A stretch of 63,602 nucleotides of DNA from an uncultured Phycisphaeraceae bacterium. Its GTDB lineage: Bacteria; Planctomycetota; Phycisphaerae; Phycisphaerales; UBA1924. Below are positions 9,716 to 24,393 of this stretch, piece after piece. The notes beneath the pieces were generated by a model. That model was not told where the DNA came from. It did no database searches and saw only the letters and a list, made by a program, of their open reading frames with translations. Within the stretch, counting starts at the first letter, position 1, and every line of letters begins with the position of its first letter. Position numbers and translations under genes: made by a program. The stretch covers positions 1-63,602 of the forward strand of contig CALCCF010000048.1 in the NCBI GenBank assembly GCA_937899905.1. The letters run 5' to 3'.

Positions 9716-11170
9716 ATGACCTTCCCCGCGGATGCCCAAACACAGAATCTGATTGACGGCCGGTGGATCGCGGCCGATGACGGAGCCTCGATCGAGGTGG
9801 CCGACCCGGCGACCGACGAGGTGATCGCCTCGGTGCCCAGCGTGGGAGAGGCCGAGACGAGGCGGGCCATCGATGCCGCCCACGCGGCGTTCGGGCCGTG
9901 GGCCGCGAGGCCGGCGGGTGAGCGGGCCAAGCTGGTCGCGCGTCTGGCCGAGCTCATGCACCGCGACGCGGATCGGCTGGCGGCCATCATGACCGCCGAG
10001 CAGGGCAAGCCGCTGGCCGAGGCCAAGGGCGAGATCAACTACGCGGCGGCGTTCCTGGAGTGGGCCGCGGGCGAGGCCCCTCGGATGTACGGCGAGACGA
10101 TCCCCGCGAACACGGCCGACAAGCGCATCCTCGTCATGCGGCAGCCCGTGGGCGTGTGCGCGATCATCACGCCGTGGAACTTCCCGGCCGCGATGATCAC
10201 GCGTAAGCTCGGGCCGGCGCTGGCCGCGGGTTGCACGACGGTCATCAAGCCCAGCGAGCTCACGCCGCTGAGTGCGCTGGCGATCGGCGAGCTGGCGATC
10301 GAGGCCGGCCTGCCTTCGGGCACGGTGAACATCGTGACCGGCCCGCCGCAGGGGATCGGCGATGCATTCTTCGGCGACGAACGCGTGCGCAAGCTCAGCT
10401 TCACGGGATCGACTCCGGTTGGTAAGCTGCTGGTGAGGAACTCAAGCGAGAACTTGCTGAGGCTCTCGATGGAGCTCGGCGGGCACGCGCCATTCATTGT
10501 ATTCGATGATGCGGACCTCGACCGCGCGGTAGCGGGAGCGGTCGCGTGCAAGTTCCGCAATGCCGGTCAGACGTGCATCTGCGCGAACCGGTTCTATGTA
10601 CAGGCCGGTATCTACGACGCGTTTGTGGAGCGCTTCAGTGCGGCAGTCTCGCAGCTGAAGGTCGGGCGGGGCACCGATGAGGGTGTTGCCATCGGTCCGT
10701 TGATCAACGACGGTGCGATCGAGAAGGTTCGCGATCACGTCGAGGACGCTCGGTCGAAGGGCGCGAGCATCCCCGTTGGTGGAGACATGGCCAAGATCGA
10801 CGGCCTTGCCGACCGTTTCTGGACCCCCACCGTCATCGACGGCATGACCCCCGACATGCGTTGCGCGACCGAGGAGACCTTCGGCCCCGTCGCGCCCATC
10901 GCACGGTTCGAGAAGGACGACGAGGCGATCGCCGCCGCGAACGACACACCGTTTGGGCTCGCCGCATACTTCTACACGAACAACGCAACACGCCTCATGC
11001 GTACCGCCGAGGCGCTCGAGTACGGCATCATCGGCGCGAACGACGCGGCCCCCTCGACCGCCCAGGCCCCCTTCGGCGGCGTGAAGCAATCCGGCTTCGG
11101 ACGGGAGGGCGGGAAGTACGTGATGGACGAGTACACGAGCGTGAAGTACGTGAGCTGGGGGTTGGTGTAG
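9716..11170 (+). CDS. gabD: NAD(P)-dependent succinate-semialdehyde dehydrogenase family
   Basis: A 484-residue aldehyde dehydrogenase. The catalytic Cys287 lies in AGQTCICANRF and the general base Glu253 in MELGGHAP. The cofactor-binding region includes TPWNFPAAMITRKLGPALAAG and FTGSTPVGK, and the C-terminus has PFGGVKQSGFGREGG. These are the signatures of the GabD group, which oxidises succinate semialdehyde to succinate in the last step of GABA breakdown. Length fits the family (about 480). An AAAGG site precedes the ATG. The probable partner, a GABA aminotransferase, is 5 kb downstream on the same strand, with unrelated secreted-protein genes between, so they are not one operon. Related semialdehydes such as glutarate semialdehyde are possible substrates. 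Confidence 0.85.
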   Translation: MTFPADAQTQNLIDGRWIAADDGASIEVADPATDEVIASVPSVGEAETRRAIDAAHAAFGPWAARPAGERAKLVARLAELMHRDADRLAAIMTAEQGKPLAEAKGEINYAAAFLEWAAGEAPRMYGETIPANTADKRILVMRQPVGVCAIITPWNFPAAMITRKLGPALAAGCTTVIKPSELTPLSALAIGELAIEAGLPSGTVNIVTGPPQGIGDAFFGDERVRKLSFTGSTPVGKLLVRNSSENLLRLSMELGGHAPFIVFDDADLDRAVAGAVACKFRNAGQTCICANRFYVQAGIYDAFVERFSAAVSQLKVGRGTDEGVAIGPLINDGAIEKVRDHVEDARSKGASIPVGGDMAKIDGLADRFWTPTVIDGMTPDMRCATEETFGPVAPIARFEKDDEAIAAANDTPFGLAAYFYTNNATRLMRTAEALEYGIIGANDAAPSTAQAPFGGVKQSGFGREGGKYVMDEYTSVKYVSWGLV

Positions 11171-16182: not shown

Positions 16183-16289
16183 GAGGAAGCCTCCAATTCG
16201 ATGCCGCACGGGGTCGAAACAGTAGGGTTTCGTTGAGGATCGCATACACTTGGGTCGCCTCCCGATCCCGCGACCCAAGGAGCCCGCCC

Positions 16290-17642
16290 GTGTCCGCAAC
16301 CGCTTCCGGTTCTTCATCAGCCTCGGCCGCCCAGAGCCGAGGCCAAGCCCTCGTCGAACGCCGCCAGGCCGTGGTGTGCCAGGGCGTGGGCATGCTCAGC
16401 CCCATGACCGCGGCGTCGGCCACGGGGGCGATCATCACCGACGCTGATGGCACCGAGTTCATCGACTTCGCCAGCGGCATCGGCGTGATGAGCGTGGGCC
16501 ACAGCGACGCGGCGGTGATCGATGCGGTGAACGCTCAGGTCGCCAACCTCCAGCACGCGTGCATCCACGTCGCGACGTACGAGCCCTACGTCGCGCTGTG
16601 CGAGAAGCTGGTCGAACTGTTCCCCCACCATGAGCACGATGACGACTCGACCAAGGCAATGCTGGTCAACACCGGGGCCGAGGCGGTCGAGAACTCGATC
16701 AAGATCGCACGCCAGGCCACCGGCCGCGACGCGGTGATCTGCTACACCGGCGCGTTCCACGGCCGGACGCTGCTGGCCGCGACGCTGACGAGCAAGGTCC
16801 ATCTCAAGCAGGGCTGCGGGCCGTTTGCCCCGGAGGTCTATCGCCTGCCCTTCCCCGCGCCGCTGCCGGGCGAGACGATCGACGAAGCCGACCTCGTTCG
16901 GCGTGAGCTGCACCGCCTCGAGCGCGCCTTCGCCGACACGGTGTCGGCGTCGAACGTGGCGGCCATCATCATCGAGGTCGTGCAGGGCGAGGGCGGGTTC
17001 AAGGTCGCGCCCAAGGCATACCTCGAAGGGCTGCGAAAGATCTGCGACGAGCACGGCATCGTGCTCATCTTCGACGAGGTGCAGGCGGGCTTCTGCCGCA
17101 CGGGCGAGTGGGCCGGCTACGACCACTTCGGCGTGCTGCCCGACCTGAGCCCATGGGCCAAGGCGATGGGCGGCGGGCTGCCCATCGCGTGCGTCATCGG
17201 CAAGTCGTCGGTCATGGACAAGGTCAATCCAGGAACGCTCGGCGGCACGTACGGCGGAAACCCGGTCGCGTGCGCCGCATCGCTGGCGGCCATCGGCCAG
17301 ATGGAGGCGATGGACCTGAACGGTCGGGCCAAGGCAATCGGCAAGACGCTGCACCAGCGGTTCACCGATTTACAGCACCGCGTGCCCGCCGTCACCGACG
17401 TGCGAGGCCTGGGCGCGATGATGGCCATCGAACTGTCCGAGGGTGGCGACCAGACGAAACCGGCGGCCGGAGTGGTCAAGGCCGTCATCGACGACTGCCG
17501 GAGCAAGGGCCTGCTCATCATCGCGGCTGGTGTCCATGGAAACTGCATCCGCACGCTGGTGCCGCTCGTGATCACGGACGAGCAGCTCGAACGCGGGCTG
17601 GACATCCTGTGCGAGAGCGTCGCCCGGCACGCCTCTTCCTGA
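16290..17642 (+). CDS. gabT: 4-aminobutyrate aminotransferase family (class III)
   Basis: A 450-residue PLP-dependent class III aminotransferase. The cofactor Lys should be Lys291 in SPWAKAMGGGLPI; FDEVQAGFCRTG carries the PLP-ring Asp; GGTYGGNPVACAA is the typical following motif. The family includes GABA:2-oxoglutarate aminotransferase, which makes succinate semialdehyde and glutamate, and other omega-amino acid aminotransferases (5-aminovalerate, putrescine). The GTG at 16290 is chosen because AAGGAG lies 7 bases upstream and the N-terminus begins there. It is the first gene of a same-strand run of five. The next gene starts 25 bases downstream. With the gabD-like gene it would complete a GABA-to-succinate route. 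Confidence 0.82.
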   Translation: MSATASGSSSASAAQSRGQALVERRQAVVCQGVGMLSPMTAASATGAIITDADGTEFIDFASGIGVMSVGHSDAAVIDAVNAQVANLQHACIHVATYEPYVALCEKLVELFPHHEHDDDSTKAMLVNTGAEAVENSIKIARQATGRDAVICYTGAFHGRTLLAATLTSKVHLKQGCGPFAPEVYRLPFPAPLPGETIDEADLVRRELHRLERAFADTVSASNVAAIIIEVVQGEGGFKVAPKAYLEGLRKICDEHGIVLIFDEVQAGFCRTGEWAGYDHFGVLPDLSPWAKAMGGGLPIACVIGKSSVMDKVNPGTLGGTYGGNPVACAASLAAIGQMEAMDLNGRAKAIGKTLHQRFTDLQHRVPAVTDVRGLGAMMAIELSEGGDQTKPAAGVVKAVIDDCRSKGLLIIAAGVHGNCIRTLVPLVITDEQLERGLDILCESVARHASS

Positions 17643-17666
17643 TTCGTTCTTGAGAGAAAGGCACCC

Positions 17667-18632
17667 ATGCGCCCATTCGCCATCGCCGGCCTGCAACTGA
17701 AGGTCTCCGGCCGACGCTCAAACCTTGAGCACATCACCGACCGCATCGAGATGGTCATGCACCTGTACCCGTGGGTGCAGATGGTCGTCGTGAGCGAGCT
17801 GGCAACATTCGGTGGATGGACCGGGCACGCCATGCCCTTGCCCGGCGAGGTCGAGGAGCACTACCAGCGGCTCGCCGCCCGCCACGGCATCTGGCTTCTG
17901 CCCGGCTCGCTGTACGAGCAGACCGACACGGGCATCTACAACACCACGCCCGTGATCAACCCCGAGGGTACGGTCATCACGCGGTACCGCAAGATGTTCC
18001 CCTTCATGCCGTACGAGACGGGCGTCGAATCGGGCACCGAGTTCTGCGTGTTCGACATCCCCGACATCGGGCGCTTCGGGGTCAGCATTTGCTACGACAT
18101 GTGGTTCCCCGAGACGTCGCGCACGCTTGCGTCAATGGGCGTCGAGGTGCTGCTGCACCCCACGCTCACGCCGACAATGGACCGCGACGTAGAGCTCTCG
18201 ATCGCGCGCGCGACCGCGGTCATCAATCAGATGTTTGTCGTCGACATCAACGGCATCAACGATGGCGGCAACGGTCGCTCCATCATGGTGGCCCCCACGG
18301 GTGATGTGCTCTACGAAGCGGGGAGCCACGAGGAACTGCTGCCCATCGAGATCGATCTCGACCGCGTTCGGCGTTCGCGCGAGGTCGGACTGAAGGGCCT
18401 CGGCCAGCCGCTGAAGAGCTTCCGCGATCGCAAGGTCGACTTCGACGTGTACACGCGCGGCAGCGCGACGACGGCGTACCTCGACACGCTGGGATCGCTG
18501 GAGAAGATGGCCCGCGGCAGCAAGGCGGGAATCGGCTTCGGCCAGCACCACCCGCACACGCTGCCTCCGATTCCGGATCAACAGACGACGCCCGTGCCGG
18601 CGGACTCCGAGACGAATGGCCCAGTGGCATGA
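17667..18632 (+). CDS. Carbon-nitrogen hydrolase (nitrilase superfamily amidase)
   Basis: A 321-residue protein with the complete nitrilase-superfamily triad: Glu44 in VSELATFGG, Lys109 in RYRKMFPF and Cys142 in SICYDMWFPE. Members cleave amides, carbamoyl groups or nitriles. The region around the Cys is closer to aliphatic amidase/formamidase-like proteins than to canonical N-carbamoylputrescine amidase, but I cannot fix the substrate. After about residue 255 comes a C-terminal extension rich in Gly, His and Pro that is not part of the fold. An AGAAAGG site precedes the ATG. It overlaps the downstream decarboxylase gene by 4 bases (ATGA), so the two are translationally coupled. Context suggests an amide or carbamoyl derivative of an amine as substrate. 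Confidence 0.82.
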   Translation: MRPFAIAGLQLKVSGRRSNLEHITDRIEMVMHLYPWVQMVVVSELATFGGWTGHAMPLPGEVEEHYQRLAARHGIWLLPGSLYEQTDTGIYNTTPVINPEGTVITRYRKMFPFMPYETGVESGTEFCVFDIPDIGRFGVSICYDMWFPETSRTLASMGVEVLLHPTLTPTMDRDVELSIARATAVINQMFVVDINGINDGGNGRSIMVAPTGDVLYEAGSHEELLPIEIDLDRVRRSREVGLKGLGQPLKSFRDRKVDFDVYTRGSATTAYLDTLGSLEKMARGSKAGIGFGQHHPHTLPPIPDQQTTPVPADSETNGPVA

Positions 18633-21319
18633 CCCAGGTGGATCCCAAAGCGACGCCAAGCCAGCGACAGAGCGGGCGGCAGTACAGCGCGTTCCAGCTG
18701 CGCATGGATACGTGGAACGAGCTGCAAGTGCGTACATCGTGGCTGCGCGAGGTGACACGCTCGGGCGGCGATGCGAGCGAGCCGAGAACGCTCGTTGGCC
18801 AGAGCCTCGACGTGCTCAATCACCTCGAGCCGTTCTGGGCCTTCCCCGGCCCGGCACGCATGGACGAACTCCGGCGGCTGCACGGGTTGGGCGCGACGGG
18901 CGAGCTCGCCGACCGCGTGGCGACCGTCGGCCGGCTGCTGGTCGGAGATGCCTACCGAGCCCGCGGCGGTGCGGCGTTCGACGATGCATCGAAAGATCCG
19001 CGTGGCAGTGGCGAGGATGCACGCGCTCTCGTGCGCGGCCGACCATACTTCGAAGTACTCTTCGTCGACGGTGCGGACGCGTACGACCATGACACGCTTC
19101 GTGACGGATTAGCCGCGTGCCGACGCGACGCGGACGAGTTCGTGTACGATGTCGTGACGGTGCCGAGCGCACAAGACGCGATTATCGCGGCCCTGTTCAA
19201 CCCGACGATCCAGGCGGTGTTTCTTCGGTACAACTTTGCCTTCGAGACCGAGAATAAGCACCCCGCGTTGCGCCGTTACCTGGACGCGTTCGAAGCCGAG
19301 CGAATGCCCAGCTCTTTCGGCCTCGAGCGGAGCGTGCATCTGGCTCGCGTCCTGAAGAAGCTGCGTCCAGAATTGGATCTCTACCTTGTCACCGACACAC
19401 CTCTCGACAGCGTGGCCGGCAACATGGGCACGGCGTTTCGCCGGACTTTTTATCGGCTCGAACATTTCATGGAGCAGCACCTGAGCATCTTGCGAGGTGT
19501 GCGCGAGCGGCACGAGACGCCGTTCTTTGATGCACTGCGCAGGTTTGCCGCCAAGCCCACGGGCGTGTTCCACGCGCTGCCCATCGCGCGTGGCAAGAGC
19601 ATGACCACCAGCCACTGGGCCCGCGACTTCCACGACTTCTACGGGCCCAACATCTTCCTCGCCGAGACGAGCGCCACCAGCGGCGGTCTCGACTCGCTCC
19701 TGCAGCCGCGCGGACCGATCCGCAAGGCGCAGGAGGCGGCCGCCCGTGCGTTCGGAGCACGACAGAGCTTCCTGGTCACCAACTTCACGTCGACGGCAAA
19801 CAAGATCGTCTTCCAGGCGCTCGTCCGGCCAGGCGACATCGTGCTGGTCGACCGCGACTGCCACAAGAGCCACCACTACGCGATGGTGCTCGCGGGCGCG
19901 CAGCCCGTGTACCTCGACTCGTACCCGCTGCAGCGATATAGCATGTACGGCGCGGTGCCCATCGAGGAGATCGAGCGTCAATTGCTCGCGCTCAAGGATG
20001 CGGGCAAGCTCGACCGCGTGCGGATGCTCGTGCTGACGAATTGCACCTTCGACGGGCTGACCTACGACCCCCGCCGCGTCATGGAGCGTGTGCTGGCCAT
20101 CAAGCCCGACATGATCTTCCTCTGGGACGAGGCATGGTTCGCTTACGGGCGATTCAGCCCGACGCTCCGCCGTCGCACGGCCATGGACGCCGCAGCGGCG
20201 TTGCGCAGGATGTACCGCAGCAGCGAGCATCGCATCAACTACGCGAATCAATCGGCCGACCGGCCCATGGCCGACCCAATGGAGGTCCGCGTGCGCGTCT
20301 ATGCCACGCACTCGACACACAAGACGCTCACGAGCATGCGTCAGGGCTCGATGATCCACGTCTACGACGAGGACTTTGAGCAGCAAGCGGCGGCGGCGAT
20401 GAATGAGGCGTTCATGACCCATACGTCGACATCGCCCAACTACCAGATCATCGCCTCGCTGGATGTGGGTCGGCGACAGGTCGAGCTCGAGGGCTACGAG
20501 CTGGTCGAGAAGACCATCGACCTCGCCATGACGCTCCGCAAGCGCGTCAATGAGCATCCGGACATCTCGCGGTTCTTCCGTGTTCTGCGTCCGGCCGACA
20601 TGATCCCCGCCCAGCACCGGCCAAGTGGGCTCGAGTTCTATTACAAGCCAGAGCACGGCTGGGGCACGATGGACGCCGCGTGGCGCGAGGACGAGTTCAC
20701 GCTCGACCCGACGCGCGTGACGCTGGAAGTTGGCGCGACGGGGCTCGATGGTGACACGCTCCGCCACATGCTCATGGATCGCTACGACATCCAGATCAAC
20801 AAGACATCGCGCAACACGGCGCTCTTCATGCCCAACATCGGCACGACGCGCGGCGATATCGCCTATCTCGTCGAGACGCTGGCCGACATCTCACGTCGCG
20901 TAGAAGACAACCTGAGCACCGAGAGCGCCGCAGGCCTCAACCTGCACACCCAGAAGGTCGACTCGTTGCTCGAAGGCCCGCCGCTGCCAAACTTCAGCCG
21001 CTTCCACGACGCCTTCCGCGACGGCGGCGACACGCCCGAGGGCGACCTACGCAAGGCCTTCTTCCTCGCATACGACGAGGACAACACGTCGTGGGTCAGG
21101 CTCGATCGCGAGCTGCTCGAACGCATCCGAGACGGGCAAGAGCTCGTGTCCGCGGCGTTCGTGACGCCCTATCCGCCGGGCTTCCCGATCCTCGTGCCCG
21201 GGCAGGTCTTCAGCGCTGAGATCATCGCGTACCTGCTCGCACTGGACGTCAAAGAGATCCACGGCTATCACCCTACGTACGGCCTGCGTGTGTTCGAGGA
21301 CCACGTGCTGCGGGCCTGA
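18629..21319 (+). CDS. Orn/Lys/Arg decarboxylase family protein (fold type I PLP)
   Basis: An 896-residue protein. Residues 1 to about 300 form an N-terminal region unlike the short receiver-type wing of enteric enzymes. The PLP domain follows: SATSGGLDSLL, DRDCHKSHHYAMVLAGA, WDEAWFAYGRFSP (PLP Asp) and HSTHKTLTSMRQGSM with the cofactor Lys at residue 565. The C-terminal domain ends near residue 896. The size and layout resemble the long actinobacterial group (Mycobacterium Rv2531c type, about 947 residues) rather than CadA or SpeC. The reaction would be decarboxylation of ornithine, lysine or arginine to putrescine, cadaverine or agmatine; the specific amino acid is not clear from sequence. 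It is the centre of the five-gene operon; the next gene starts 28 bases downstream. Confidence 0.82.
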   Translation: MTQVDPKATPSQRQSGRQYSAFQLRMDTWNELQVRTSWLREVTRSGGDASEPRTLVGQSLDVLNHLEPFWAFPGPARMDELRRLHGLGATGELADRVATVGRLLVGDAYRARGGAAFDDASKDPRGSGEDARALVRGRPYFEVLFVDGADAYDHDTLRDGLAACRRDADEFVYDVVTVPSAQDAIIAALFNPTIQAVFLRYNFAFETENKHPALRRYLDAFEAERMPSSFGLERSVHLARVLKKLRPELDLYLVTDTPLDSVAGNMGTAFRRTFYRLEHFMEQHLSILRGVRERHETPFFDALRRFAAKPTGVFHALPIARGKSMTTSHWARDFHDFYGPNIFLAETSATSGGLDSLLQPRGPIRKAQEAAARAFGARQSFLVTNFTSTANKIVFQALVRPGDIVLVDRDCHKSHHYAMVLAGAQPVYLDSYPLQRYSMYGAVPIEEIERQLLALKDAGKLDRVRMLVLTNCTFDGLTYDPRRVMERVLAIKPDMIFLWDEAWFAYGRFSPTLRRRTAMDAAAALRRMYRSSEHRINYANQSADRPMADPMEVRVRVYATHSTHKTLTSMRQGSMIHVYDEDFEQQAAAAMNEAFMTHTSTSPNYQIIASLDVGRRQVELEGYELVEKTIDLAMTLRKRVNEHPDISRFFRVLRPADMIPAQHRPSGLEFYYKPEHGWGTMDAAWREDEFTLDPTRVTLEVGATGLDGDTLRHMLMDRYDIQINKTSRNTALFMPNIGTTRGDIAYLVETLADISRRVEDNLSTESAAGLNLHTQKVDSLLEGPPLPNFSRFHDAFRDGGDTPEGDLRKAFFLAYDEDNTSWVRLDRELLERIRDGQELVSAAFVTPYPPGFPILVPGQVFSAEIIAYLLALDVKEIHGYHPTYGLRVFEDHVLRA

Positions 21320-21347
21320 GCCCACACACCACTCGCTTGGGGGACCG

Positions 21348-22889
21348 ATGACCACCGTCACGACGAAGCCGATCGACCTGGCCAAGGCCAAGCCGCTGAC
21401 CAGCAACATCGCCAGGCGCAAGCGCGGGACGCTGCACGGCATCTCCGACATCCGCCGGTTCTTCCACCGCAACACCGAGCCCATCTACTTCATCAGTGCT
21501 ACGAACTTCAACCTCGTGGGCATCGACGAGTGGGTCGGCAACTTCGCGTACATCAACTACATCGATTGCTTCGATGGGCAACACCCAAACGTGTTCGTCC
21601 CGCCGGAGCGGCCGCACGAGCCCTTCGAGAGCATCGAGGACATCAACAACTACTTGTTGCGGCATCCAGCCGTCAAGAGCCTCATCAAGAAGCGTGGCGA
21701 GGACTACCAGAAGTCGGGCGGCAAGGGCAACGGCAAGGCCGTGTTCCTGATGTTCGACCAGACCACCGAGAAGCTCTGCAAGGAGCTCGGCCTCAAGGTC
21801 TGCTTTCCGCCCGCGTCGTTGCGGACGGCCGTCGACGACAAGATGGAGACCACCCGCATCGGCAACAAGGCCCGCGTGCGCAGCGTACCAAACAAGCTCG
21901 CACGCGTGAAGAGCTACGAGCATCTATCCAAGATCTGCGGCAAGAAGCTGGGCGACGACCTCGTCATCCAGACGGCCTACGGGGACTCGGGCCACACAAC
22001 CTTCTTCGTGAAGAATGAGAAGGACTTTGCCAAGCACGAGGCCGAGATCACCAGCGCCCCCGAAGTGAAGATCATGAAGCGCATCCGCTGCCGCGGGAGC
22101 GCGCTCGAGGCCTGCGTCACACGGCACGGCACCATCGTCGGCCCGCTCATGACCGAACTCGTCGGCTTTCCGGAGTTGACGCCCTACAAGGGTGGCTGGT
22201 GCGGCAATGAAGTGTTCGCCGGCGCATTCGACCGACGCATCCGCAAGAACGCCAGGCGTGCGGCGATGGCCTTCGGCGACCAACTCCGCGAGATGGGCTA
22301 CCTGGGCTACTTCGAGATCGACTTCCTCACCGACCTGGACACCGGCACGGTCTACCTCGGCGAGTGCAACCCGCGCATCACCGGCGCGAGCAGCATGACG
22401 AACCTCGCCGCGTTTGCGCACGCCGACGCACCCCTGTTCCTGTTCCACCTGCTCGAGTGGATGGGCGTGAAGTACGAGCTTGATGTGGACGAGCTCAACG
22501 ATCGATGGTCCGACCCGGACAACATCGACAGCTGGAGCCAGCTGGTCATCAAGCACACCAAAGACACCGTCGACCGCATCACGCAAGCACCTCCCAGCGG
22601 CATCTACGAGCTCGACGGCCGCGGGCACATGCACTATGTGCGCATGCAGACCCACCGCCGGACCGTTCGATTCGAGAACCGCGCGTTCTTCCTGCGCATA
22701 GCCGCACCGGGCGACTACCGGTATGAGGGCGCCGACCTAGGCATCCTCGTCAGCCCGGGCCGATTCATGGACGACGACTTCCAACTCACGAAGCGCGCAC
22801 GCCAGTGGATCCGGGGCATCCACAGCTTCTATGCCGGCCAGAGCGACGACCACGGCGGCCCTGAGAGCACCGGGTTCAAGCTGCTGTGA
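21348..22889 (+). CDS. ATP-grasp ligase of unknown substrate
   Basis: A 513-residue soluble protein. The ATP-grasp pattern is visible: a first lobe with VIQTAYGDSGHTTFFV (phosphate-loop-like Gly/Ser/His region) and VKIMKRIRCRG, and a metal-binding segment GYLGYFEIDFLTD...YLGECNPRITG in which Glu and Asn should bind Mg-ATP. Members join a carboxylate to an amine, thiol or other nucleophile via an acyl phosphate; this protein is like the biotin carboxylase/carbamoyl-phosphate branch in its ECNPR motif but lacks the other carboxylase domains. ATG 21348 is preceded by GGGGGA. It overlaps the C45 gene by 4 bases (GTGA). Next to a decarboxylase and an amidase, an amine ligase is the simplest guess. 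Confidence 0.75.
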   Translation: MTTVTTKPIDLAKAKPLTSNIARRKRGTLHGISDIRRFFHRNTEPIYFISATNFNLVGIDEWVGNFAYINYIDCFDGQHPNVFVPPERPHEPFESIEDINNYLLRHPAVKSLIKKRGEDYQKSGGKGNGKAVFLMFDQTTEKLCKELGLKVCFPPASLRTAVDDKMETTRIGNKARVRSVPNKLARVKSYEHLSKICGKKLGDDLVIQTAYGDSGHTTFFVKNEKDFAKHEAEITSAPEVKIMKRIRCRGSALEACVTRHGTIVGPLMTELVGFPELTPYKGGWCGNEVFAGAFDRRIRKNARRAAMAFGDQLREMGYLGYFEIDFLTDLDTGTVYLGECNPRITGASSMTNLAAFAHADAPLFLFHLLEWMGVKYELDVDELNDRWSDPDNIDSWSQLVIKHTKDTVDRITQAPPSGIYELDGRGHMHYVRMQTHRRTVRFENRAFFLRIAAPGDYRYEGADLGILVSPGRFMDDDFQLTKRARQWIRGIHSFYAGQSDDHGGPESTGFKLL

Positions 22890-23872
22890 GCGAAGCCGAT
22901 CCGCGGACGATGCTCTTCCGATCGATGGAAGACGGCGAGGCGCTCGACACGGCGTTCGAGGCCTACTGGCCGGCGTACCGCGAGTGGATGGCCAAGCCCA
23001 AGAAGCGCACCAGCGCCAAGCGGGCACGCGAAGCGCTCGCCGAGTACATGCCCGAGCTCGTGCCGACGCTGGAGCAGCTCCTCGCACGCTTCGGCGATCG
23101 CGCCGAGGTCGCGAGGTTCCTGACGCTCTACAACCCGCCACCGCTCGTGCGCGGGTGTACGCAGGCGATCTGGCTCGGTGATGGCGGTCCGGCGATGGTT
23201 CGCAACTACGACCACGCGCCGCACCTGGCCGACGGCGTCGTGCTGCACGCGGACTGGGGTGGCGTGAAGACGCTGTGCGTGACCGACTGCCTCTGGGGCG
23301 CGCTCGACGGTGTGAACGAGCACGGCTTGTGCGTCGCGCTCGCCTTCGGCGGGCGACCAACTCGCGGCGATGGCTTCGCAGCCCCGTTGCTCGTGCGCTA
23401 TGCGCTCCAAACCTGCACGACCGCGAATGAGGCCGCCGAGGCGATCGCGCGTGTGCCCTGCGCCATGACCTACACGTTCGTGTGCCTCGACGAGCACGGG
23501 GATCATGCCACGGTGTACGCGGCACCAGACCGCCCCGCGCGGATCGACCACCAGCTTGCGAGCGCCAACCACCAGGGCAAGGTCGAGTGGCCGCAGTACG
23601 CCCTGAAGTGCAAGACCGTGGAGCGGCTGGCGCACACACGAAAGCTGCTCGACGCACGTTCCCAATCGCTGGCCGGGCTGACCAAGAGCTTCCTCGAGGC
23701 CCCGCTCTACCGGGCCACCTACGACGAGGGCTCGGGCACGCTGTATACGTGCGTGTACTCGCCCGCCGACCGCTCGCTCGCCCTGCACTGGCGCTCCGCA
23801 CGGCCGGTGAGCCCGATGGCTTGCGATCTCCATCGATACGAAGCGGCATCGACCATCGCGTATCTGGGGTAA
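22886..23872 (+). CDS. C45-like autoproteolytic acyltransferase/hydrolase (Ntn fold)
   Basis: A 328-residue protein. RGCTQAIW with Cys91, followed by AMVRNYDHAP, is the hallmark of the C45 family (acyl-CoA:6-aminopenicillanate acyltransferase and relatives), in which autoproteolysis before Cys exposes the N-terminal nucleophile; NEHGLCVALAFGG and FVCLDEHG follow as in the family. Residues 1-90 would be the removed or retained propiece. These enzymes form or break amide bonds with acyl groups. Start is GTG 22886, inside the stop of the ATP-grasp gene (GTGA). The pairing of an amide-forming ATP-grasp with an amide-handling Ntn enzyme in tight coupling suggests they work on the same conjugate. 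No signal peptide, so it acts in the cytoplasm. Confidence 0.78.
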   Translation: MSEADPRTMLFRSMEDGEALDTAFEAYWPAYREWMAKPKKRTSAKRAREALAEYMPELVPTLEQLLARFGDRAEVARFLTLYNPPPLVRGCTQAIWLGDGGPAMVRNYDHAPHLADGVVLHADWGGVKTLCVTDCLWGALDGVNEHGLCVALAFGGRPTRGDGFAAPLLVRYALQTCTTANEAAEAIARVPCAMTYTFVCLDEHGDHATVYAAPDRPARIDHQLASANHQGKVEWPQYALKCKTVERLAHTRKLLDARSQSLAGLTKSFLEAPLYRATYDEGSGTLYTCVYSPADRSLALHWRSARPVSPMACDLHRYEAASTIAYLG

Positions 23873-23911
23873 GGGCGCGTGCGCTAAGGACCTTTCAACA
23901 GCCCGGGCCGG

Positions 23912-23917
23912 TACAAT
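23912..23917 (+). promoter_or_regulatory. -10 box of Fur-like gene
   Basis: TACAAT ends 8 bases before ATG 23926. No clear Shine-Dalgarno sequence; a leaderless or near-leaderless transcript is likely. Confidence 0.4.
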
Positions 23918-23925
23918 TTGGTCGC

Positions 23926-24393
23926 ATGGCACTCCAAACCAGCAACGGTTCGACCAGCATCCGCATCACCGAGCCCCTGTGCGCCGTCTTTCGCCGCCAG
24001 CTAAAGGCCGAGGGGCAGAAGTACACCCCCGAGCGGGCCCAGGTACTCGATGCCATCATCGCCCTGGATCGCATCTTCGAGGCTGAGCAGGTTATCGAGG
24101 AACTCCGCCAGCGGCAGCACCGCGTGAGCAAGGCGACGGTGTATCGCACGATCAACCTTCTGCAAGACGCCGGCATCATCCAGCGTGTGCTCACCGAGGG
24201 TGATCAGGCGCAGTACCAGCTGGCCTATGGCGAGAGCCCAAGCGACACGCTCGTCCGGCTCGACACTCGGGAGGTCGTGGACATCGATGTGCCCGAGCTC
24301 GCGGCCATCGCCGAGCGGGTCTGTAAGGATCTCGGGTTGCGTCCCCAGGGCCACAAGCTGCAGATCTTCGCGGTTGCTCCAAACGACTCATAG
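23926..24393 (+). CDS. Fur-family regulator lacking the metal-binding residues
   Basis: A 155-residue protein. The winged-helix half is normal for Fur: KYTPERAQVLDAI, then HRVSKATVYRTINLLQDAGIIQRV, then YQLAYG. The C-terminal half keeps the dimerisation pattern (EVVDIDVPELAAIAERV, GLRPQGHKLQIF), but the HHDH motif reads SPSDT, the first CxxC is replaced by RLDT, and there is no C-terminal CxxC. The regulatory and structural metal sites of Fur, Zur and PerR are therefore missing. It probably binds DNA as a dimer but cannot sense iron or zinc in the usual way. It lies 53 bases after the C45 gene with its own -10 box, so it may control the operon before it. Regulation target is unknown. Confidence 0.8.
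   Translation: MALQTSNGSTSIRITEPLCAVFRRQLKAEGQKYTPERAQVLDAIIALDRIFEAEQVIEELRQRQHRVSKATVYRTINLLQDAGIIQRVLTEGDQAQYQLAYGESPSDTLVRLDTREVVDIDVPELAAIAERVCKDLGLRPQGHKLQIFAVAPNDS

Follow-up and report, generated by a model that had tools for sequence, protein, structure and literature searches.

In the insect Black-Ebony-Tan system and the animal GADL1/carnosine synthase system, a pyridoxal phosphate (PLP)-dependent decarboxylase converts an acidic amino acid into an omega-amino acid, which is coupled to a partner by an ATP-dependent ligase, and a hydrolase splits the conjugate; insect Tan, like one enzyme considered here, belongs to the C45 enzymes. A locus of similar presumed logic, although with other decarboxylase and ligase families, occurs in a window of 63,602 nucleotides (the whole stretch of DNA analysed), which is contig G000:C48 of a 3.63-Mb, Phycisphaeraceae-like genome. 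Five genes follow one another on the + strand: AT, a GabT-like class-III aminotransferase (16290..17642; Pfam Aminotran_3, 384 bits); NIT, an amidase of the nitrilase (carbon-nitrogen hydrolase) superfamily (17667..18632; Pfam CN_hydrolase, 110 bits); DC, an OKR-fold PLP decarboxylase of 896 aa (18629..21319; OKR_DC_1, 273 bits, plus OKR_DC_1_C); GRASP, an ATP-grasp ligase (21348..22889; NF005096/PRK06524, 'biotin carboxylase'); and C45, an N-terminal nucleophile (Ntn) hydrolase or acyltransferase with a Gly90-Cys91 site (22886..23872; AAT; NF040521, 159 bits, cut-off 85). A preliminary description of the window had reported the common direction, 4-base overlaps at two junctions, and gaps of 25 and 28 bases at the others. 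The reading frames agree with the direction, with the overlaps (NIT/DC and GRASP/C45) and with the 28 bases between DC and GRASP, but the gap between AT and NIT is 24 bases. The start of AT is uncertain (GTG at 16290, or TTG at 16233, to which the open frame extends), and the ATG of GRASP at 21348 sits within a longer frame opened by a GTG at 21288. Scanning for promoters and terminators gave no promoter-like and two terminator-like sites, not above shuffled sequence.

The puu pathway likewise combines a ligase, an amide hydrolase, a gamma-aminobutyrate (GABA) aminotransferase and a succinate-semialdehyde dehydrogenase. The window, however, has an ATP-grasp enzyme for the glutamine-synthetase-fold PuuA and C45 and nitrilase enzymes for PuuD, and there was no PuuB-like oxidase, nor any amine oxidase, among the 20 gene clusters present in at least four of the related loci described below (one representative of each was identified). 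From the set PuuA, PuuB, PuuC, PuuD and PuuE, only a PuuE-like aminotransferase and a distant aldehyde dehydrogenase were found in the window. AspD/AspT and GadB/GadC-type pairs resemble those relatives of DC that lie beside AspT without GRASP, whereas the module in the window has GRASP, C45 and NIT and no AspT. The CATCH-N network of S. meliloti, finally, runs from arginine through 4-guanidinobutanoate and GABA to succinate (PMC7268258), and symbiotic plasmids of rhizobia carry relatives of the cluster; the main text of that paper contains none of the terms 'biotin carboxylase', 'nitrilase', 'amidase' or 'ATP-grasp'. In PMC8305402, no row of the plasmid table reads 'biotin carboxylase', and the single match to that term lies outside the table. 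The literature covered, from which subscription papers were mostly absent, yielded no description of the cluster. As far as we have seen, the individual parts are all members of known families, while their combination and the chemistry it performs have not been described, in line with the earlier view that this is not a standard polyamine or puu pathway.

A four-gene core and its gene order

NIT, DC, GRASP and C45 form the core of the locus. We drew one sample of 294 genomes from the window's phylum, in which NF005096 matched 152 at an expectation value (E) ≤0.001 through ordinary ATP-grasp relatives; only matches above 600 bits were counted as GRASP. These occurred in 15 genomes, 14 of which exceed the curated cut-off, and NIT (E ≤1e-40) was present in precisely the same 15. 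DC (E ≤1e-60) was found in the 15 and also in G207 (full length) and G275 (partial, 281 bits), and C45 (E ≤1e-40) in all of the 15 except G118 and also in G016 and G036, where fragments of GRASP adjoin it. By their labels the 15 genomes span nine families, with five genomes belonging to one genus.

A wider survey, covering 84,980 species with a single genome each, yielded at least 560 relatives of GRASP, of which the best 80 were analysed, and its gene-order counts accordingly favour near relatives. These 80 loci come from nine phyla (Planctomycetota, Myxococcota, Eisenbacteria, Bacteroidota, Balneolota, Pseudomonadota, Acidobacteriota, Deinococcota and Calditrichota), the closest named relative among them being that of a Phycisphaeraceae metagenome-assembled genome (MAG; 86% identity). 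Genes in the neighbourhood were called from codon usage and by label propagation, and one representative was scanned per similarity cluster. Gene order was counted in the 54 loci with wide flanks, which represent five phyla (Planctomycetota, Myxococcota, Bacteroidota, Acidobacteriota and Pseudomonadota); the 26 loci with short flanks were omitted. DC was present in 52, NIT in 50 and C45 in 51 of the 54, in every case on the strand of GRASP, and 45 loci held all three with GRASP. With Halomonadaceae left out, 40 loci remained (DC 38, NIT 36, C45 37, all three 31). The order of the window, AT-NIT-DC-GRASP-C45, was the most frequent (17/54), and the order NIT-GRASP-C45-DC occurred in 14 loci, every one from Halomonas, Billgrantia or Litchfieldella. 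The probability of such linkage by chance was 1.8e-25, a figure that takes no account of shared ancestry; the phyletic profile and the gene order together rule out chance adjacency, which we had considered. The comparison of gene order among relatives that the preliminary description had proposed thus revealed a unit that is linked across phyla. Where NIT was missing from the locus, a copy lay elsewhere in the genomes of L044, L066 and L063 (the last a locus at a contig edge), and no close copy was found in the genomes of L054 and L099.

At L006 1501-2964 (G264:C310) GRASP reads through two in-frame TGA codons, owing to decay, sequencing error or recoding. In some Bacteroidota loci (L072 6695-7102; L073, L078) a protein of 133-135 aa lies between NIT and DC; a family scan of the 135-aa protein gave only a sub-threshold Ble-like match.

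The pocket of DC and its relatives beside AspT

DC shares its fold and its catalytic residues, K565, H412 and D500, with five aligned E. coli enzymes (SpeC, SpeF, CadA, LdcC and AdiA) but differs from them in the pocket. In the alignment, Asn724 of DC corresponds to a Glu in SpeC, SpeF, CadA and LdcC, which we take to be important for the recognition of ornithine and lysine, and to Thr571 in AdiA; Arg728 corresponds to an Asp in AdiA, four residues after Thr571; and Gln859, within a PGQ motif, corresponds to Glu in all five. H412, D500, K565, N724, R728 and Q859 were invariant in 43/43 rows of the family, and the genomes of Thiofilum and Thiothrix encode ordinary OKR decarboxylases that retain Glu and PGE. 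The annotated E. coli genes were used as the reference, and chain 6q6i, which is labelled arginine decarboxylase, has Glu at the position of Asn724. DC did not resemble an ornithine or lysine decarboxylase, having Asn724 for Glu and scoring 111-213 bits against equivalog cut-offs of 794-1310, nor one of the AdiA type (NF011603, 181.5 against 1167 bits; Asn724 and Arg728 for Thr571 and Asp). We had considered the pocket Glu as a universal mark of basic decarboxylases and dropped the idea, since AdiA has Thr there; therefore, Asn724 alone does not rule out arginine. The nearest relative of DC with a solved structure is M. tuberculosis Rv2531c (9n0n, 9n0o, 9n0p; E 9.8e-231 for 9n0o), which has the same Asn and PGQ and an Ile for Arg728. 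According to PMC12910592, the activity of Rv2531c has not been clarified.

Of the stretches that hold DC without GRASP, nine were examined, eight of them plasmid-borne and one from G207, a genome of the window's phylum. The aspartate-alanine antiporter AspT adjoins DC in seven (L138-L143 and L145; not in L137 or L144), namely in Ensifer (L138, L142 and, on both sides, L143), Rhodobacter (L139, two copies), Rhizobium (L140), Phyllobacterium (L141) and G207 (L145), so that six of the seven come from records of Hyphomicrobiales or Rhodobacterales. Against a TIGR03802 cut-off of 546.95, AspT scored 656 bits in L145, where it overlaps DC by 4 bases, and 558 bits in L138. Both L140 and L142 have a gene annotated as aspartate 4-decarboxylase, and L140 further carries an HdeA-family chaperone and a carbonic anhydrase. 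All eight of these DC proteins whose residues were read (the nine but L143) have the Asn, the Arg and PGQ. No AspT match was found in any of the best 80 GRASP loci. An exchanger of acidic amino acids beside a decarboxylase is a familiar decarboxylation-antiport arrangement. Since AspT adjoins these relatives, the substrate of DC is most likely aspartate or glutamate, an assignment that we consider probable on the strength of residues and neighbours. The preliminary description had instead suggested a conjugate of an amine such as putrescine or agmatine; a putrescine, cadaverine or agmatine conjugate is disfavoured by Asn724, Arg728 and Gln859, by AspT beside seven of the nine DC genes without GRASP, and by the lack of an amine oxidase among the recurrent clusters. 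The pair of DC and AspT without GRASP (L145 6960-11506 in G207, and L138-L143) is a two-gene system in its own right, found on plasmids and in one Planctomycetota-type genome.

Candidate enzymes of amide chemistry and of GABA metabolism

The enzyme classes for making and breaking amide bonds that had been named at the outset were confirmed as families (ATP-grasp, nitrilase and C45 Ntn). GRASP surpasses the equivalog cut-off of NF005096 (PRK06524; 745.5 against 684 bits), and the name 'biotin carboxylase' is the label of that model; it had no Pfam match at E 0.001. Its predicted model, with a predicted local distance difference test (pLDDT) score of 88.1, has an ATP-grasp fold of the PurK, biotin-carboxylase or PylC type, and compares with PurK 3k5h (Z 23.6, root-mean-square deviation (rmsd) 4.2, 359 residues aligned), with PylC 4ffl (Z 22.7, rmsd 4.3, 325 aligned) and with biotin carboxylase (Z 22.9, 385 aligned), the rmsd across the three folds being 4.1-4.3. 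We also considered a carboxylation of the biotin or PurK-like kind, which would fit the predicted fold equally well; no biotin carrier or carboxyltransferase was found among the 20 recurrent clusters, a search that did not extend to rarer neighbours or the rest of the genome.

C45 is a C45/isopenicillin N acyltransferase-type Ntn enzyme by its profile score, its nucleophile Cys with Asp and Asn, and its fold. C91, D109, N228 and R247 were kept in 42/42 aligned rows, in which the residue before the nucleophile is Gly (34), Ala (6) or Ser (2). The model (pLDDT 94.8) superposes on isopenicillin N acyltransferase 2x1c (Z 29.2, rmsd 3.1, 299 aligned), and a sequence search of the PDB gave only weak, chance-like matches. 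NIT has the active site of the nitrilase superfamily, with E44, K109, E117 and C142 invariant in 39/39 rows. It reaches no equivalog cut-off, the best model being that of aguB, N-carbamoylputrescine amidase (TIGR03381), of which it is not a member at 77 of the required 410 bits.

AT has 182 identities with E. coli GabT over 426 aa and keeps 10 of 11 compared GabT positions, the roles of which we assume (I50, R141, E211, V241, K268 and R398 among them; Q79 is His93), and its score of 469 bits lies below the TIGR00700 cut-off of 506.65. A succinate-semialdehyde-dehydrogenase-like (GabD-like) gene (9716..11170, + strand; TIGR01780, 633 bits, below the cut-off of 646) lies 5 kb upstream in the window, outside the operon, and its product has 260 identities with E. 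coli GabD over 482 aa. The two genes had been thought to share a theme, and this is borne out: the GabD-like similarity cluster recurs in 47 of 81 gene-called loci (the window included), and its members adjoin AT in several relatives, lying directly before it in L031, L033, L039 and others. GABA transaminases also lie beside the core in L068 (a Burkholderiaceae MAG) and L089 (Acinetobacter piscicola), scoring 584 and 573 bits and so exceeding the same TIGR00700 cut-off, although their best subfamily models differ from that of AT in the window. In Roseobacter ponti, the core is preceded by gabT, at a distance of 2.6 kb, and followed by a peptide-type ATP-binding cassette (ABC) transporter. GabT-type enzymes also accept beta-alanine; therefore, the context of AT does not settle the choice between GABA and beta-alanine. 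A MocR-type protein (GntR plus aminotransferase domain) is encoded next to GabT-GabD in L089 and has relatives in L094, L129 and L130; those of the Cupriavidus loci L094 and L129 adjoin NIT, and in C. necator N-1 such a gene follows C45. Regulation of GABA genes by MocR proteins is known (PMC5320631). In the window, C45 is followed in the same direction by a Fur-family regulator (23482-24393; FUR, 76 bits).

A putative pathway, its alternatives and genomic contexts

We tentatively propose a scheme that, taken as a whole, is possible rather than probable, and in which every substrate, conjugation partner and reaction direction is one that we infer. DC would strip the alpha-carboxyl from an acidic amino acid, converting glutamate to GABA or aspartate to beta-alanine, and GRASP, spending ATP, would link the omega-amino acid to a partner molecule by an amide. 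C45, as a putatively self-cleaving Ntn amidase or acyltransferase, and NIT may cut or remodel such omega-amino-acid amides, and GabT and the GabD-like dehydrogenase, where present, could channel the omega-amino acid into central metabolism. In other genomes the module would be fed from other sources, for example an arginine cassette or an importer. GRASP, C45 and NIT are retained where a DC ortholog is lacking, as genome-wide searches showed for the genomes of Thiothrix (L061), Thiofilum (L056) and Plasticicumulans (L063; ~140 bits at best) and of Acinetobacter sp. MB5 (L109; no match); therefore, the three enzymes plausibly act downstream of the product of DC.

In L061 and L056, whose genomes have this arginine cassette in place of DC, the genes after NIT-GRASP-C45 encode an amino-acid permease, an agmatinase, an AruI-like decarboxylase (5-guanidino-2-oxopentanoate decarboxylase), an aldehyde dehydrogenase, a DadA-like protein (the DadA assignment comes from L065, a member of the same cluster) and a racemase-arginase fusion. 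Shinella (L121) has the same arginine set with GRASP-C45 embedded in it, flanked by the aldehyde dehydrogenase on one side and DadA on the other; NIT and an Lrp regulator are encoded close by but run the other way, and L126 and L127 are arranged likewise. The Thiothrix pair and the Shinella pair occupy two separate, well-supported places in the GRASP tree. The plasmids of Shinella, RAC02 and C. necator N-1 were searched (not the chromosomes) and are without DC. DC is thus dispensable beside GRASP, an arginine-to-GABA cassette being one alternative, and the cassette may supply the same compound as DC.

Several observations weigh against the scheme. AT is present in only 25 of the 54 well-flanked loci (23 on the strand of GRASP). 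C45 was found nowhere in 7/7 genomes that lack it at the locus, which are mostly MAGs and may be incomplete (the C45 search of the phylum genomes served as positive control). In a search of plasmid proteins, DC occurred in 38 records, 18 of which had no GRASP match, and a Roseateles XES5 plasmid (L126) carries a full DC 550 kb away from the arginine-type locus, where DC has thus not simply been replaced. Further members of the DC family keep Asn724 but have Pro (S. meliloti) or Leu (G118) for Arg728. The S. meliloti decarboxylases OdcA and OdcB act on ornithine or 5-amino-oxopentanoate, according to PMC7268258, and one of them could conceivably be a DC ortholog. Two features hint at polyamines: ureohydrolases beside the cluster exceed the agmatinase cut-off (TIGR01230; L056, L051), and an XRE-cupin regulator of PuuR-like architecture (c18) occurs in four loci. 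Finally, the contexts point to two different acidic amino acids, AspT/AspD and the ectoine cluster favouring aspartate, and GabT/GabD and the arginine cassette favouring glutamate.

The ectoine context is that of Halomonas, Billgrantia and Litchfieldella, in which NIT-GRASP-C45-DC lies between doeA/doeB/Lrp and the aldehyde dehydrogenase-aminotransferase pair of the ectoine-degradation cluster (L076, L077, L080, L081, L086, L090, L092, L093, L095, L100, L102 and L104-L107; some members are missing through contig ends or gene calls). TIGR02993 and TIGR02994 scored above cut-off in representatives, PALP and OCD proteins are neighbours, and the core lies between relatives of doeX and doeC/doeD. 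A role in ectoine metabolism was also considered; in H. elongata, doeX directly neighbours doeC, with no core between them (PMC3187862). Beside DC-AspT of Phyllobacterium (L141), the neighbours include a dehydrogenase, an aminotransferase, Lrp and a MocR-like protein, a set resembling that of the Halomonadaceae ectoine cluster. Since ectoine degradation ends in aspartate (PMC5320631) and the neighbours in L141 are similar, aspartate is favoured in those lineages.

The order of the first two steps could also be reversed. GRASP would then make a gamma-glutamyl or beta-aspartyl amide, DC would decarboxylate it to a GABA or beta-alanine amide, and C45 and NIT would release the parts, a logic drawn from butirosin BtrJ/BtrK. 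This would suit the acid or amide side chain in DC, the PylC-like fold of GRASP and the amide hydrolases; however, GRASP, C45 and NIT persist without DC, and the DC relatives beside AspT that lack GRASP suggest a free amino acid as substrate, which leaves this alternative improbable. Also improbable, ranking next, is that DC is an arginine decarboxylase, with GRASP, NIT and C45 processing agmatine or 4-guanidinobutyrate to GABA and GabT/GabD finishing the route. The AruI-centred cassette that adjoins GRASP in Thiothrix, Thiofilum and Shinella-type loci speaks for it, as do the agmatinase-family genes just mentioned and the fact that AdiA likewise lacks the pocket Glu, but DC has Arg728 for the Asp of AdiA and Gln859 for the Glu of all five E. 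coli enzymes, its relatives are partnered by AspT, and the recurrent neighbours include no amine-oxidising enzyme. In a puu-like route, putrescine or cadaverine would be the product of DC, GRASP would conjugate that amine in the way that PuuA joins glutamate, C45 or NIT would hydrolyse the conjugate once oxidised, and GabT would deaminate. Such a route would agree with the membership of DC in OKR_DC_1, with the GabT/GabD neighbours and with the XRE-cupin regulator. It appears quite unlikely, however, given that the Glu of SpeC, SpeF, CadA and LdcC is Asn724 in all 43 aligned rows while the ordinary Thiofilum and Thiothrix decarboxylases keep Glu and PGE, and given the AspT context. That DC makes N-carbamoylputrescine from citrulline for hydrolysis by NIT to putrescine is scarcely credible, since the suggestive best model of NIT scores far below its cut-off, NIT is kept without DC (L056, L061, L063, L109), the AspT context speaks against it, and GRASP and C45 would be left unexplained.

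Returning to omega-amino-acid conjugation as the preferred scheme, the linkage turns four family-only names ('biotin carboxylase', 'C45 peptidase', 'carbon-nitrogen hydrolase' and 'aminotransferase fold'/'decarboxylase') into one testable pathway. If true, it would add an acidic-amino-acid decarboxylase of a new kind, together with a way of making omega-amino-acid conjugates at the expense of ATP, in loci of nine phyla, and would offer the first substrate hypothesis for the orphan Rv2531c fold and for the genes that adjoin nifHDKEN on a Rhizobium plasmid. A bolder extension, which we regard as rather doubtful, is that the locus is a widespread and so far undescribed bacterial counterpart of Black-Ebony-Tan, with an OKR-fold glutamate or aspartate decarboxylase, an ATP-grasp enzyme building pseudo-dipeptides of GABA or beta-alanine and C45 and nitrilase enzymes splitting them, whose decarboxylase would also have relatives beside AspT without a ligase, and which would occur in free-living Planctomycetota and in nif-adjacent Rhizobium.

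Two plasmid contexts deserve mention on their own account. On the R. leguminosarum Vaf10 plasmid (L131 5291-12516), DC-GRASP-C45 adjoins nifHDKEN, and the genes after it encode a dipeptide ABC transporter and an amidase; similar DC-GRASP-C45-like sets lie on other R. leguminosarum plasmids and on S. meliloti pSymA. In Shinella, the other strand beside the arginine/GRASP operon (L121 14984-19446) encodes an NAD synthase, an adenylate-forming enzyme, an acyl carrier protein and an asparagine synthase, and this set, the same in L126, is possibly a small biosynthetic cluster.

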